Shown: positions 27,506-63,945 of the stretch, in pieces
How positions within the stretch are numbered: position 1 is the stretch's first letter
Layout: the number at the start of each line of letters is the position of its first letter
Source of the DNA: Clostridia bacterium
GTDB taxonomy: Bacteria > Bacillota > Clostridia > Oscillospirales > RGIG8002
Assembly (NCBI GenBank): GCA_017620395.1
Contig: JAFZQJ010000006.1
Span: forward strand, 1-64,000
Direction of reading: 5' to 3'
Length of the DNA stretch: 64,000 bases
Translations under genes and position numbers: made by a program
Notes under the pieces: model-generated
The model's input: the letters and a program-made list of their open reading frames with translations, nothing else
Told to the model about the DNA's origin: nothing
The model's database searches: none

Positions 27506-29644
27506 TTATACACAGATTCTCATAAATCTCTTAAACTGATCCAGCGTTATATTCTTTTCGTTACCGTTAGCAAGCCGCGTAATATGCCATTCATCGCCTT
27601 TATATACCGGGAGATAGAAATAGTATCCCGTCAATAACGATGCTTGTTTATAGCACTTTTTCAGTTCTTCGACTTTCAGTTTATATGCGGTGGAGTCAAA
27701 CGCCGCCGGTGTTGCATTTGATATGTTTACGCTTTTTACCTCAAACAAATGAATCCGGTCGAAAGAATCCTTCATGATGAAATCCGGATACGACGAATGG
27801 ACGCCGCCCAAGCAGTATTCAAACTTTATTTCGGAGTTCAAAAGATAGTTTTTGCCCCACAGGTATTTCTGCGCAGCATCTATCCTTTCCGGCTCAATTT
27901 CGCCAAAAAGATTAACCTGACCAGCTTTAGGATTTTTCTTGCCCGTCAACACCCGTTTTCCAACACGCTTTCCGCTAAATCCGTCAGCATCCGAAGTAAC
28001 AAGCTCTTTAATAATGCTTGCCCATTCGCGTTCAGCTTCACTATCAAATGAGAACTTGTCCTTTCCGTCTCTTCTTCTCCAAACCCAGTCGCCTATATTA
28101 ACATAATTGCCATTGTCAACATAGGAAGAGGTAACGGGAAACGACACTTCACGTGTCGCGCCGGAATCATCAGTTGTCAACTCCATACTCTTCGCGTAAT
28201 CGCAGGAATAACGATTGCTTTCCGATGCGATTTTCTCGGCGTGTTCGGCAACCTTCCACCATTTTTCTATGCTTTTGTCAACATAATCATAGCAGAGATC
28301 CATCGTGGCATCGTCAAGCTTCTGCATTGCCTTATAAAGCTCGAAAATGTTTGAATTACTGGATATATTCGGTTGACTCGATAAAAACGCCTCAAGATCA
28401 AAGCCACTTTTTTCCGTGAGCGGCTTCAACCGTGTGGTATGTATTTTTATAGCGTTTGTAATATCCTCCGGCTCATCCCACAAGCGAACGCCGAGCGTTT
28501 TTCTGACGTTATCATCGATATTTGCCCAAATCCACGCCGTCATAGCCAGCTCTTGCGCTTGCGGAGAAAGTCGCTCGTAATCAAGGAGTCGAGGATTTCT
28601 TCTGACTCTGCCGATAACCTGTTCTCCGAGAGTAGGGCTATGCACGTCTCTGACTTGATAAAGCATACACGCTCTCGGAATATCCCAACCTTCGGATATG
28701 ACCATCTTGAAAATGATTATATCAATACCGCTTGTGTTCTCTTTTGCATAGTCTTTCCATCTGGAAACAGGAAGCTTTTTGGCTTTGAAAACGTCGTTTG
28801 TATCACAATCGGCATCCTTATCAACAATAAGCATCCATTTTAAGTCTTGATGCTCCGCTTTGTTGAGTTCCGGGAATATTAGATTGTTTAATTCATAGGT
28901 TCCTTGCTCGCCATTGGAAATCTGAATAATAAGGCAGGGATTAACGCCGAGAAGATTACGATAATTCTCCTTGACTTCTTCAAATTTGTTGATCGCATCG
29001 CCGACCGTATCGTTTTCTTCACCCTCGACAATATGTTTGATTAATTTTGCGTTTTCGGCATCGGTCGATTTAATCTCCACATCGGGGTGCTGTTCTCTGC
29101 GAAGATTAGGCGTAGCGGAAAAGTTCAGTACTTTCGCAAAATACGTATCAGACAGCGTGTCAAGGTTATTTGTTGCAATATGGCACTCGTCTTTGATGAG
29201 AAATACTTCTTTGCAGTCATCCCAAGAGTACCATCCGGTGATTTCTTGCAAAAATGCATCCATGGCGCCTTGCATCAACCTTCCGCCCTTTTTATAAAGG
29301 TCACGAGGAAGGATATACACGTTATAATCCGTGGGAATATACAACCGTTCTTCTCCGGACAATTCGGTAGAAATAAGATACGGATTCAGATGCGGGAATG
29401 CCCCTGTTTGTTGATACTCGCAAAACTTTGAATAGTTTTGTCCGGCAAGATCGCCTTTGGATAGCGAAGATACAAGAAAAACTATATCGTCATTATTTTC
29501 AAGAACACGGTTCATCAAATCCGCCATCATATAAGTTTTACCGCTGCCGGTAGGGGCTTTGAACGTGATCTCGTCTTTGTCTCGGAGTTGTTCAACAAGT
29601 TCCGAAACAGCGTTGAGTTGAAGATCTTTCGCTTCCTGTAACAT
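27506..29644 (-). CDS. Type III restriction enzyme, Res (helicase-nuclease) subunit
   Basis: 712 residues. The SF2 helicase core carries Walker A APTGSGKT (30-37), the DECH box (about 150) and late motifs VISEGWDIPRA and GRVRRNP. The C-terminal nuclease shows the PD-(D/E)xK pattern, PDF then EVK (about 617-640). Together with the adjacent Mod it forms a type III system that translocates on and cuts unmethylated DNA. At 712 residues it is shorter than many Res proteins (about 900-1000), yet all motifs are present. The start overlaps the Mod stop by 1 bp (TAATG). The region is much richer in A+T than its neighbours, pointing to transfer. Confidence 0.9.
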   Translation of the reverse strand: MLQEAKDLQLNAVSELVEQLRDKDEITFKAPTGSGKTYMMADLMNRVLENNDDIVFLVSSLSKGDLAGQNYSKFCEYQQTGAFPHLNPYLISTELSGEERLYIPTDYNVYILPRDLYKKGGRLMQGAMDAFLQEITGWYSWDDCKEVFLIKDECHIATNNLDTLSDTYFAKVLNFSATPNLRREQHPDVEIKSTDAENAKLIKHIVEGEENDTVGDAINKFEEVKENYRNLLGVNPCLIIQISNGEQGTYELNNLIFPELNKAEHQDLKWMLIVDKDADCDTNDVFKAKKLPVSRWKDYAKENTSGIDIIIFKMVISEGWDIPRACMLYQVRDVHSPTLGEQVIGRVRRNPRLLDYERLSPQAQELAMTAWIWANIDDNVRKTLGVRLWDEPEDITNAIKIHTTRLKPLTEKSGFDLEAFLSSQPNISSNSNIFELYKAMQKLDDATMDLCYDYVDKSIEKWWKVAEHAEKIASESNRYSCDYAKSMELTTDDSGATREVSFPVTSSYVDNGNYVNIGDWVWRRRDGKDKFSFDSEAEREWASIIKELVTSDADGFSGKRVGKRVLTGKKNPKAGQVNLFGEIEPERIDAAQKYLWGKNYLLNSEIKFEYCLGGVHSSYPDFIMKDSFDRIHLFEVKSVNISNATPAAFDSTAYKLKVEELKKCYKQASLLTGYYFYLPVYKGDEWHITRLANGNEKNITLDQFKRFMRICV

Positions 29645-31314
29645 TACTTATCTTCCTCCGGACGCTTTTTCCAATCGGCGTCGCTTACAAGAATTTTTTG
29701 CGTTCCTTCAAAGTTCCGGCAAACCCACTCGATCTTTTCTTTCAACGCACTGAATCGTTCTTGACCGTACAATGTTTCATCAATCACGTCAAAAGCCGTT
29801 TGCCCCGGAACACTTTCGAAATTTGCAACCTCCGCAATTTCATACACATCAAGACTGCCGCCTAACGGCGCGTTGTCTTTGATCCACTTAAAATCAGTCG
29901 ACCCATCATAACAACTCCCGGTCATAGTTCGCTTAAGCCGTTTTGTGGTAACATCATAGGCAATGCCGTTTGGATTCTCAGGAGTGATCTCATTAATTTG
30001 GCATAAAATGAAACGCCTATTTCCTGGATCTTCAAGGTTTAATTTCAAGACGGCTTCTCCAGTTGTTCCCGACCCAGCAAAAAAGTCAAGGACAATCGCT
30101 TCTTTATCAGGGCAAACCATTTTCACTAATTCATAAATTAATGCAGATGGTTTCGGATTCTTAAACAGTTGACTCCCGTTCTCGAAAATTTTATCAAGTT
30201 CTTTTTTGCCGTTGTCGTTGGAATATTTGTTATCAATAAAAGATAAAGTTGTGTATGATTTTGTTGCATCTATTGTTTCTAATTCGTTTTTGCCGTTCTT
30301 TTTTCTGCAGTTAAGATACGATTTTGTATAAATACGGTCATTCTTAATTACAAACAGTTTTTGTTTAATGCCCCATTCCACTGCACTTTTTGACCATCTC
30401 CATACCCAATCGGTTTTTCCATGCTTTCCGGCGTGCCTTTCAATCATACCTGCTTTTGTTCCGCCAGGGTAAAAAGAGCGGCCATCCATTACAATTTCAT
30501 AGTCCATCGTTTGACTATACTGAAGCGAATTATAATCAAGAGTTTGTGACAAGGCATATTTGCCGCGTGTTTCAACAAATTCATCTTCATATTTGTATTT
30601 CGACAGATCAGTTTTTTCTTCTTGGCTGAACTGAATATCTGTTGATAGGGTATATGCTAAAATATAATCGCTGTTTTTCGCAATTGTTTGAGTGGATTTG
30701 CCTCCTTTCTTTGTGATTCTTGATACATTGAAAAGGAAAGCGCTTTCGCCAAACACTTCATCCATTAAACATTTTACATATGCTTGATTCTTGTCATCAA
30801 TACTTACAAAGATAACACCACTCGGGGATAACAACTGCTTTGAGATAAAAAGACGCGGATAAAGCATTGAAAGCAAATTGTCTCTTGTAATTGCATTCTC
30901 ATAATTTGTCTGAGCAAATTCGCCCATGCTATCTTTCCCATACGGTGGATCAATATAAATAACATCAATTTTGCCCTTGTACTGAATAAGCAAATTGAGT
31001 AAAGCGTCATAATTATCGCCGATTATCAACTTATTCGGCGCGCTGTCGGAACCGTCAGAAAAACTTAAATTTTCGTTTTTCTTGAGGTATTTTATAGCAT
31101 CTTTTGTAATTTCAAGCCTTTTATCAAAATGAAAGCCCGTCCGCTTATACGTTGTGCCAAGTTCGGCAATGGCAATTGCCTCTGTTAGCGTTTCCGCATT
31201 TTGAATAAGCTTTTTAAGAAGATCGGCATTGCTCTTTTCAATAATGCCATCTTCAACGCGACGATCCAATTCGTTTAACAGTTCAAGTTTGCTTTGGTCA
31301 TAAACTCTATCCAT
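29644..31314 (-). CDS. Type III restriction-modification DNA methyltransferase (Mod)
   Basis: 556-residue N6-adenine methyltransferase of the beta class. The catalytic DPPY motif (122-125, in YIDPPYGKDS) precedes the AdoMet-binding FAGSGTT motif (about 413), the order expected for type III Mod. The middle region (about 170-400) should hold the target recognition domain. The start is the ATG at 31314, with AAGGAG 7 nt upstream. Mod gives site specificity to the complex and protects host DNA. I see no simple-sequence tract that would make it phase-variable. Confidence 0.92.
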   Translation of the reverse strand: MDRVYDQSKLELLNELDRRVEDGIIEKSNADLLKKLIQNAETLTEAIAIAELGTTYKRTGFHFDKRLEITKDAIKYLKKNENLSFSDGSDSAPNKLIIGDNYDALLNLLIQYKGKIDVIYIDPPYGKDSMGEFAQTNYENAITRDNLLSMLYPRLFISKQLLSPSGVIFVSIDDKNQAYVKCLMDEVFGESAFLFNVSRITKKGGKSTQTIAKNSDYILAYTLSTDIQFSQEEKTDLSKYKYEDEFVETRGKYALSQTLDYNSLQYSQTMDYEIVMDGRSFYPGGTKAGMIERHAGKHGKTDWVWRWSKSAVEWGIKQKLFVIKNDRIYTKSYLNCRKKNGKNELETIDATKSYTTLSFIDNKYSNDNGKKELDKIFENGSQLFKNPKPSALIYELVKMVCPDKEAIVLDFFAGSGTTGEAVLKLNLEDPGNRRFILCQINEITPENPNGIAYDVTTKRLKRTMTGSCYDGSTDFKWIKDNAPLGGSLDVYEIAEVANFESVPGQTAFDVIDETLYGQERFSALKEKIEWVCRNFEGTQKILVSDADWKKRPEEDK

Positions 31315-31424
31315 ATGCGTTCTCCTTTTACTGTATAAGCAATTGTTAGTAATAGATAACGATTCTTTTAATAATAATACCACATAACTGCATTTTTGTA
31401 AAGCGATGAATTCGTACCCTCGGA

Positions 31425-38309: not shown

Positions 38310-38768
38310 TCAGTTGACCTGATACATACCGTTGACGCTCATATAGTCGTAGAGCGTTTTGCCGTGGTTCTGCTCCTGCTTCTGGATGGCGTTCAGCACG
38401 TTGCGGACGCCCTCGTCACGGAACTCGAAAATGCAGGTGTCATAGAGCGAGGACGTGTGCTTCTCTCCGGTCAGCAGGTCGGTGCAGAGGTAGCAGTCGT
38501 CGTGCTTCTCCGGCGATTCGGAGGCGTAGCATTGAGTGAAGCCGGAGGGGATGCTGCCGCCCGCGGCGCTGACCTGCGGGATCCTGCCCTCGCCGATCTG
38601 GTCGAGGTAGCTTAAATGCTGTCCCTCGGCGGAGGAGAGCTGCGTGAAAAGGTTTTTGAGCTGTCCGTCGTGGGCGCATCGGGCGTGCTTGTCGTATTTC
38701 TCGATGCAGAGCTTTTCCTGCTCCTTCATCTCGTTGAGCAGGGAGGATTCTTTTTGAGATAACTGCAT
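38310..38768 (-). CDS. CotF-like spore coat protein
   Basis: 152 residues. The helical, ferritin-like pattern (LSQKESSLLNEMKEQEKLCIEKYDKHA then QHLSYLDQI and a late QEQNHGKTLYDYM) matches the CotF family of Clostridial coat proteins as I know it. Three cysteines (CAHD, CYLC pair) could cross-link in the coat. The start at 38768 follows AGGTGA. It is probably transcribed in the mother cell, but I could not identify a sigma-K or sigma-E promoter with confidence. Confidence 0.78.
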   Translation of the reverse strand: MQLSQKESSLLNEMKEQEKLCIEKYDKHARCAHDGQLKNLFTQLSSAEGQHLSYLDQIGEGRIPQVSAAGGSIPSGFTQCYASESPEKHDDCYLCTDLLTGEKHTSSLYDTCIFEFRDEGVRNVLNAIQKQEQNHGKTLYDYMSVNGMYQVN

Positions 38769-38833
38769 AATTTCACCTGTCCTTTCGCGCTTATTATGCG
38801 CGCTCAAGGCGCGAATATGCGGAATGTAAGAAT

Positions 38834-45013: not shown

Positions 45014-45074
45014 TTCGACAAAAACGGGCGTTTTGTCGAAAAATGTCGAACGAATTACGGCGGAAAATGTCGGG
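45014..45074. promoter_or_regulatory. Cluster of 0A boxes upstream of the spo0A-like gene
   Basis: TGTCGAA occurs at 45034-45040 and 45044-45050 (10 bp apart), inverted at 45014-45020, with a partial TGTCGGG at 45068-45074. TGTCGAA is the known Spo0A recognition sequence. Confidence 0.75.
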
Positions 45075-45080
45075 AAATGA

Positions 45081-45109
45081 TTGAAATAGTATGAAAAAAG
45101 GAGTATAAT
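45081..45109 (+). promoter_or_regulatory. Promoter of the spo0A-like gene
   Basis: TTGAAA (45081-45086), 17 bp, TATAAT (45104-45109), just downstream of the 0A boxes. Confidence 0.7.
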
Positions 45110-45149
45110 TCACAATATAAGGAGCCTGACATCTGAGGAGGTTAGCGCG

Positions 45150-45899
45150 GTGGAGTACAAAGTATTGATAGCCGACGATTGTTTCGGGAGCGTTGAAGAC
45201 GCGGAACGCACCGTCACGGGTTACGGTATGCGGGCGTTTTTCTGCGAACGCGACGGAGATGAGCTTATCAGGCGTATAGATGAGCTGAAGCCGGACGCTG
45301 TCGTGATGAACGTCGCGATGCGCGGAACGGACGGGTTCGGCGTTCTCGCCCGAATGAATGGTGACGCACGCGCTCCGAAGTTCATTTTGACTCACCTCGG
45401 CGGCAGTACCGCCAAAGTCATGGAGGCTATGGAGCTGGGCGCTTCATACTGCATCGAACTGCCGATAGACCGCCATCTTCTCGCGGACAGGCTCGATATG
45501 CTGCGCTACAGGGCGGAGTGCGCCTCCGTTTCCGCAGCGGCGAAGCCGAAACGCGATACGGAAGCGGTAATAGCGGATGTGCTGCACGAGCTTGCGGTTC
45601 CGGCGCACATAAAGGGGTATCAGTACCTGCGCGAGGCGGTTTCGCTTTCTCTGCGCAGCGCGGCGCCGGTCAGCTTCGTGACGAAGGAGATATATCCTGC
45701 GGTCGCCAGACGCTTCGGCACGACAGTTTCCTGCGTCGAACGCGCGATAAGACACGCGATAGAACTCACGTGGGACCGCGGAGACGTCGACGTGTTGAAC
45801 GGGTTTTTCGGATATACCGTCCGAGCGGATCGCGGAAAGCCGACGAACAGCGAATTCATCGCCATCGTCGCCGAAAAACTGCGTACGGATGTGATGTAG
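45150..45899 (+). CDS. spo0A: Spo0A-type transcription factor with a degenerate receiver domain
   Basis: 249 residues. The C-terminal half (about 145-245) is a clear Spo0A DNA-binding domain: HELAVPAHIKGYQYLREA, VERAIRHAIELTWDRGD, GYTVRADRGKPTNSEF. The N-terminal receiver keeps the acidic pair Asp9-Asp10 and Thr81, but the phosphoacceptor position reads VVMNVAM (Asn54 instead of Asp) and the conserved Lys of KP is Leu104. It probably cannot be phosphorylated in the normal way. The GTG start is set by GAGGAGG. It may be the organism's only Spo0A, working without phosphorelay, or a second copy that modulates the true one; one window cannot tell. Confidence 0.88.
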   Translation: MEYKVLIADDCFGSVEDAERTVTGYGMRAFFCERDGDELIRRIDELKPDAVVMNVAMRGTDGFGVLARMNGDARAPKFILTHLGGSTAKVMEAMELGASYCIELPIDRHLLADRLDMLRYRAECASVSAAAKPKRDTEAVIADVLHELAVPAHIKGYQYLREAVSLSLRSAAPVSFVTKEIYPAVARRFGTTVSCVERAIRHAIELTWDRGDVDVLNGFFGYTVRADRGKPTNSEFIAIVAEKLRTDVM

Positions 45900-63174: not shown

Positions 63175-63945
63175 TCAAAGCTGTTTCTTTATCTCGTTCA
63201 GGGCGCTTTTTTCGAGGCGGGAGACCTGCGCCTGCGAAATGCCGATCTCGGCGGCGACCTCCGTCTGCGTCCTGCCCTTGATATAGCGGAGCGAAAGGAT
63301 GTGCCGCTGCCGCGGGGAGAGATTGTTTATCGCGTCCTTCAGCATTATTTCCTCTATCCAGTTCTCGTCGCTGTCGCGCGGGCTGCTTATCTGGTCCATA
63401 ACGAGTATCGCGTCGCCGCCGTCGTTATAGATCGGCTCGCTGAACGAAAGCGGATCGACTATCGCCTCCATCGCGATAACGACCTCCTCGCGCGGAACGT
63501 TCATCTTCTCCGCCAGCTCGGTGACGGAGGGTTCCCTGCCGAGCTTCGTCAGCAGCTCCTCCTTCGCGCGCAGGGCGCGGTAGGCGGTGTCGCGTATCGA
63601 CCTGCTGACGCGGACGGCGGAGTTGTCGCGCAGGTGGCGGCGCACCTCGCCGATTATCATCGGCACAGCGTAGGTCGAGAAGCATACGCCGTGCGACGGG
63701 TCGAAGTTGTCTATCGCCTTTATCAGCCCGATGCAGCCGACCTGAAAGAGATCGTCCGGATTTTCGCCGCGGTTGGTGAAACGCTGGATGACGCTGAGCA
63801 CGAGCCGCAGGTTGCCGCATACGAGCTTGTCGCGCGCGGATGCGTCGCCCCGGCGTATCCTTTCGAGCAGCTCGGTCTTCTCGGATTCCTTCATCAGCGG
63901 AAGCTCCGCGGTGTTCGCGCCGCATATTTCGACCTTGTTCGTCAT
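63175..63945 (-). CDS. sigG: Sporulation sigma factor SigG
   Basis: 256 residues, full-length. Sigma-G directs late forespore gene expression. The N-terminal VEICGANTAELP is a mark that separates SigG from SigF; region 2 reads NLRLVLSVIQRFTNRGENPDDLFQVG and region 4 RTQTEVAAEIGISQAQVSRLEKSA, both close to Bacillus SigG. The start is set by GGGAGG 8 nt upstream. The gene ends 20 bp before its terminator; a partner such as spoIIGA or sigE would lie beyond the window edge. Confidence 0.93.
   Translation of the reverse strand: MTNKVEICGANTAELPLMKESEKTELLERIRRGDASARDKLVCGNLRLVLSVIQRFTNRGENPDDLFQVGCIGLIKAIDNFDPSHGVCFSTYAVPMIIGEVRRHLRDNSAVRVSRSIRDTAYRALRAKEELLTKLGREPSVTELAEKMNVPREEVVIAMEAIVDPLSFSEPIYNDGGDAILVMDQISSPRDSDENWIEEIMLKDAINNLSPRQRHILSLRYIKGRTQTEVAAEIGISQAQVSRLEKSALNEIKKQL

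Follow-up and report, generated by a model that had tools for sequence, protein, structure and literature searches.

Introduction

According to a review (PMC11210211), Spo0A initiates sporulation in every endospore former and is activated when a conserved aspartate is phosphorylated; this acceptor Asp is required in the Spo0A proteins of B. subtilis and C. difficile (PMC11210211), and in Clostridia it is the residue at which orphan kinases phosphorylate Spo0A (PMC11210211, PMC6136694). The spo0A gene considered here, from a member of the clostridial order Oscillospirales, encodes asparagine at this position. It lies within a stretch of 64,000 nucleotides (hereafter the window), for which a preliminary description proposed that ordinary phosphotransfer through the encoded protein would not trigger sporulation unless a normal spo0A is also present elsewhere. 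The locus thus raises the question of whether the organism holds any phosphorylatable Spo0A and, if not, how such a regulator could act.

A Spo0A with a degenerate receiver active site

The gene (45150–45899, + strand; spo0A paralogue 1) was delimited by its open reading frame and profile matches, begins with GTG, is preceded at eight bases by a ribosome-binding site, GAGGAGG (45135–45141, +), and encodes 249 amino acids. Two domains were recognized: a pseudo-receiver spanning approximately residues 4–117 (45159–45500, +), supported by Pfam Response_reg, the AlphaFold2 model and PDB matches, and a Spo0A_C DNA-binding domain (45570–45881, +), supported by Pfam and structure matches. Response_reg matched residues 5–115 with 42.7 bits (cut-off 30.2) and Spo0A_C matched residues 141–244 with 131.7 bits (cut-off 25), while the DNA-binding domain matched PDB entry 1lq1 at 8.5e-38. 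The NCBIfam equivalog model TIGR02875 (spore_0_A; cut-off 200) scored 211.1 for the window copy and 236.9 for a second copy located on contig C28. The AlphaFold2 model (mean pLDDT 90.8, pTM 0.54) comprises a complete receiver and DNA-binding domain, with residues 1–120 forming a block of pLDDT 89–98 in a normal (beta-alpha)5 fold; the modeled domains match solved Spo0A domains and the Spo0F receiver in the PDB. Judged by its sequence, the gene is a bona fide Spo0A by descent and by its DNA-binding domain, as the preliminary description had held for the DNA-binding half, and is not of the phospho-activated type.

Three of the five landmarks of a receiver active site are lost. The phosphoacceptor position is occupied by Asn54 (codon 45309–45311, +), the conserved Lys position by Leu104 (45459–45461, +), and the conserved Thr/Ser position by His82 (45393–45395, +), which is Tyr in the other genus copies aligned. 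The acidic pair Asp9-Asp10 (45174–45179, +) alone remains; Asp9 is kept across the genus, and Asp10 is replaced by Asn or Glu in two genus copies. Both substitutions pointed out beforehand, Asn54 and Leu104, are borne out by the alignments, as is the retention of Asp9 and Asp10. Thr81 (45390–45392, +), which had been counted among the remaining receiver residues, is present, but the catalytic Thr/Ser column is its neighbor 82. The protein accordingly lacks the combination of Asp, Lys, Thr/Ser and acidic pair that defines a phosphorylatable receiver, and it qualifies as an aspartate-less receiver, with Response_reg above cut-off and Asn54 at the acceptor position. B. subtilis Spo0A served as the numbering ruler, and the conclusions rest on columns common to the genomic sequences.

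A shifted alignment was considered, in which a neighboring Asp would take the acceptor role. The acceptor stretch PDAVVMNVAMRGTDG aligns without gaps to the PDVLVLDIIMPHLDG type of normal Spo0As, no neighboring Asp moves into the acceptor place, and the nearby Asp49 and Asp61 are residues that normally flank it, which rules this possibility out. An artefact of sequencing, genetic code or assembly is likewise ruled out, as independent genomes show the same pattern and the remaining receivers encoded here are intact: those shown in the alignments, which serve as an internal control, keep both Asp and Lys.

No phosphorylatable Spo0A in the genus

The window belongs to a draft genome of 1.93 Mb in 35 contigs (98.7% complete; G000). 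A search of this genome for an intact second Spo0A, as the preliminary description had suggested, returned exactly two Spo0A_C matches, the window gene and the gene on contig C28, and no third match in this assembly. The C28 protein reads VVMNMAMR and YCLELPVD and thus carries Asn, Tyr and Leu at the three lost landmarks, so that a second, normal spo0A is ruled out as far as the assembly goes, and the proposal that ordinary phosphotransfer does not operate through the window protein is supported. Three other genomes of the genus encode one or two spo0A copies each, in all of which Asn occupies the acceptor position and Leu the Lys position; two of these genomes (97% completeness) each encode a single Spo0A, also with Asn, Tyr and Leu. 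In one of the genus genomes (G001), the copy on contig C14 has Phe in the Thr column and its receiver contains an in-frame TAG; this assembly is a 75%-complete draft, and the TAG may be an error. In the alignment, Asp, Thr/Ser and Lys are absent from every full-length Spo0A copy of the genus, and by this measure no phosphorylatable Spo0A is left in the genus.

Sporulation genes and candidate phosphodonors

The window also encodes SigG (63175–63945, −) and a Coat F domain protein (38310–38807, −), in agreement with the preliminary description, which had placed sigG and a coat protein nearby. Just past the window end, beyond sigG, lies spoIIGA–sigE; spoIIAA–spoIIAB–sigF is located on contig C22 and sigK on contig C27, and SpoIIE and SASP genes occur elsewhere in the genome. 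The sigF product scored best with SigF models, below their cut-offs, and was identified by its location behind spoIIAA and spoIIAB. By gene content, the sporulation pathway is kept in the genus. Apart from these genes, the window harbors a type III restriction-modification pair consisting of a Res subunit and a DNA methylase (27506–31383, −).

Turning to possible phosphodonors, the genome encodes seven HisKA kinases, three of them beside a response regulator (contigs C15, C22 and C26, the last recognized by its position behind the regulator and its sequence character, without a separate family scan) and four of them hybrids with receivers. No orphan, receiver-less HisKA kinase was found among the seven. 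One hybrid histidine kinase includes an entire amino-acid permease as a fusion (AA_permease_2, HisKA, HATPase_c, Response_reg; L304:6030–9008, −, contig C20) and is a possible transporter-sensor. A phosphorelay to Spo0A through HPt was considered and rejected: the only HPt gene in the genome adjoins a REC-GGDEF-EAL gene (L306:4610–6854, contig C12), which provides a plausible other target and is likely the alternative destination of the four hybrid kinases. The absence of the Spo0E phosphatase was uninformative as a sign of pathway loss, as it was missing in 11 of 11 genomes searched, including Asp-bearing ones.

Loss of the acceptor across the order

The survey was extended to Spo0As from 137 genomes of the order, representing 23 families, from which 134 rows outside the genus were counted, and to 89 rows from 36 families of the rest of the class. 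In the order rows the acceptor is Asp in 102, Glu in 19, Asn in 11, Ser in one and Trp in one. Elsewhere in the class, Asp occupies the position in 86 of 88 readable rows and Glu in two; 87 of the 89 rows retain Lys. Asp is therefore missing from 32 of 134 order Spo0As outside the genus versus 2 of 88 elsewhere (Fisher p = 2.7e-6, computed on related rows that are not independent). Lys/Arg is missing more often in Asp-less rows (12/37) than in Asp-bearing rows (6/101), and the alignment indicates that the acidic pair has also decayed repeatedly in the order. When the active-site columns are left out of the Spo0A tree, the presence of Asp changes at least 20 times along it, and well-supported branches require at least 10 of these changes; this count does not separate losses from gains. 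Within this sample, a genome assembled as one contig and listed as 100% complete (G010) encodes one Spo0A only, bearing Asn and Met, and keeps SpoIIE-domain and SASP genes. Dockerin content gave no link between Asp-less Spo0A and the proven spore former Ruminococcus bromii.

The number of Spo0A_C matches varied among genomes. Genome G207 (L423) and those of family f30, of 0.8–1.1 Mb and listed as 99–100% complete, have two or three, the Spo0A of G207 bearing Glu at the acceptor; G081 and G326 have six each; and G004, G037 and other genomes of the class encode additional Spo0A_C proteins, some of them in reading frames that could not accommodate a receiver.

Given the repeated loss of Asp, sporulation in the order is probably started in some other way. 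The broader proposition that this order of anaerobes has repeatedly uncoupled its sporulation master regulator from phosphorylation strikes us as doubtful.

Upstream 0A boxes and sequence constraint

The control region of the window gene contains three exact 0A boxes. Two form a perfect tandem, TGTCGAA-AAA-TGTCGAA, with a 10-bp period (45034–45050, +; boxes at 45034–45040 and 45044–45050), and the third lies on the opposite strand (45014–45020, −). Downstream of these boxes is a promoter-like TTGAAA-N17-TATAAT (45081–45109, +). Single exact boxes occur at chance level, with 13 in the window versus 10.2 expected. The tandem TGTCGAA-N3-TGTCGAA, in turn, precedes, in register and amid diverged DNA, the window gene, its G001 orthologue and the one spo0A of another genus member (G003); boxes upstream of the C28-type copies are degenerate. 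Across the order, tandem boxes ahead of 16 of 136 spo0A genes reach 13 or 14 of 14 matches, whereas shuffles average approximately nine. As these genes include both Asp-bearing and Asp-less ones, autoregulation of spo0A probably arose early. A scan for exact sites, or for sites with one mismatch and the GTCG core, gave no clear 0A box ahead of spoIIA or spoIIG.

Between genus copies, dN/dS (ratios from NG86 values) is approximately 0.2–0.3 for the receiver and approximately 0.04–0.2 for the C-terminal domain. These low ratios indicate that both domains are under purifying selection.

Mode of action

We favor, with modest confidence, a phosphorylation-independent Spo0A in which abundance, governed through the protein's own 0A boxes, would be the means of control, perhaps joined by another signal acting on the pseudo-receiver. 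In this scheme, unphosphorylated Spo0A would dimerize on tandem 0A boxes, and its activity would follow the quantity produced; binding to its own promoter would provide feedback, either positive or negative, and above a threshold level the protein would switch on spoIIA, spoIIG and spoIIE. The pseudo-receiver may tune activity through dimerization or a non-phosphate signal. Against this reading, the Asn protein could simply be inactive, since Asp is required in B. subtilis and C. difficile (PMC11210211). The degenerate boxes ahead of the C28-type copies, the negative scan of spoIIA and spoIIG and the draft state of the genome also weigh against it.

The two copies in the window's genome may, alternatively, have divided their roles, with the window copy acting not as the initiator but as an accessory regulator, either a heterodimer partner or an antagonist of the C28 copy. 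Together with its G001 counterpart, the window copy forms a fast-evolving pair in the tree and in pairwise rates, a pattern consistent with such a role, as are the perfect 0A boxes upstream of the window copy and a substitution in its recognition-helix region. Here Cys195 (codon 45732–45734, +) replaces the residue equivalent to B. subtilis Arg211; the other genus copies and 134 of 134 rows from elsewhere in the order have Arg, and Cys, found in the window copy alone, is one codon in one assembly, which limits its weight. The only spo0A of G003 argues against an accessory role: it retains Arg195 and shares its upstream neighbors, namely ZIP transporter, zinc-ribbon and ECF-transporter genes, with the window gene, so that the locus was not accessory by origin. 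These shared neighbors indicate that the gene probably first occupied the window locus and that the C28 locus probably arose later by duplication. We thus consider an accessory role somewhat unlikely, and regard the window copy as a faster-evolving paralogue at the older locus, with the C28 copy, whose DNA-binding domain is more conserved, probably acting as the main sporulation regulator.

The former phosphorylation pocket might instead have become a new input site, responding to a thiol, a metal or a small ligand. Cys11 (codon 45180–45182, +), directly after the acidic pair, is invariant in the genus and present in 1 of 134 rows elsewhere in the order, and Cys32 (45243–45245, +) is invariant in the genus and present in 11 of 134; Cys101 (45450–45452, +) is also invariant, yet common in the order (42/134). 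In the predicted structure, Cys32 directly follows the strand of residues 27–31 and Cys11 lies in the loop after the first strand. Redox-controlled Asp-less regulators exist, for example RitR, Hp1021 and Cj1608 (PMC12632262). Cys11 is missing, however, from nearly all the other Asp-less families in the order, and invariance among five or six related sequences is weak evidence, because they share ancestry; a pocket switch of this kind is unlikely.

Less likely still is a decay of these genes in which sporulation has been lost or degraded and the DNA-binding domain kept for other regulon roles: although the C14 copy of the incomplete G001 draft is interrupted, Arg195Cys is unusual and the acidic pair has been lost repeatedly in the order, both Spo0A domains are under purifying selection, the early sigma cascade is complete, SpoIIE and SASP are kept in the genus and the upstream 0A boxes are conserved, a constraint that renders sporulation decay the less likely reading.

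Comparison with known systems

Aspartate-less receivers are an established class, some of which act as constitutive regulators; RitR has Asn in place of Asp, and Asn is the second commonest Asp substitute (PMC4395418, PMC12632262). In the passages considered, Spo0A appears only as a case in which Glu substitution alone is insufficient for activity. A literature search, which was not exhaustive, found no report of an Asp-less Spo0A, and the literature found does not describe one. A lineage without the acceptor, together with approximately a quarter of the sampled order Spo0As, would break the rule of Asp phosphorylation and would make the presence of spo0A alone a poor predictor of how sporulation is controlled; these proteins also offer natural variants for testing phosphate-free Spo0A switching.

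The protein resembles Spo0A of B. subtilis and C. difficile in its combination of receiver and Spo0A_C domains, its largely retained 0A-box recognition region and the accompanying sigma cascade; it differs in lacking the Asp, the Thr/Ser and the Lys, and its genome has no orphan HisKA kinase. The clostridial orphan-kinase pathway (PMC11210211, PMC6136694) operates in the same bacterial class and ends at the same regulator, but the phosphorylated Asp at its endpoint is missing in the window's genus. With RitR, ChxR, GlnR and HP1043, the window protein shares lost landmarks, a retained fold (here predicted) and a likely independence of phosphate; unlike it, those regulators, as described in the passages considered, are not members of the Spo0A family.
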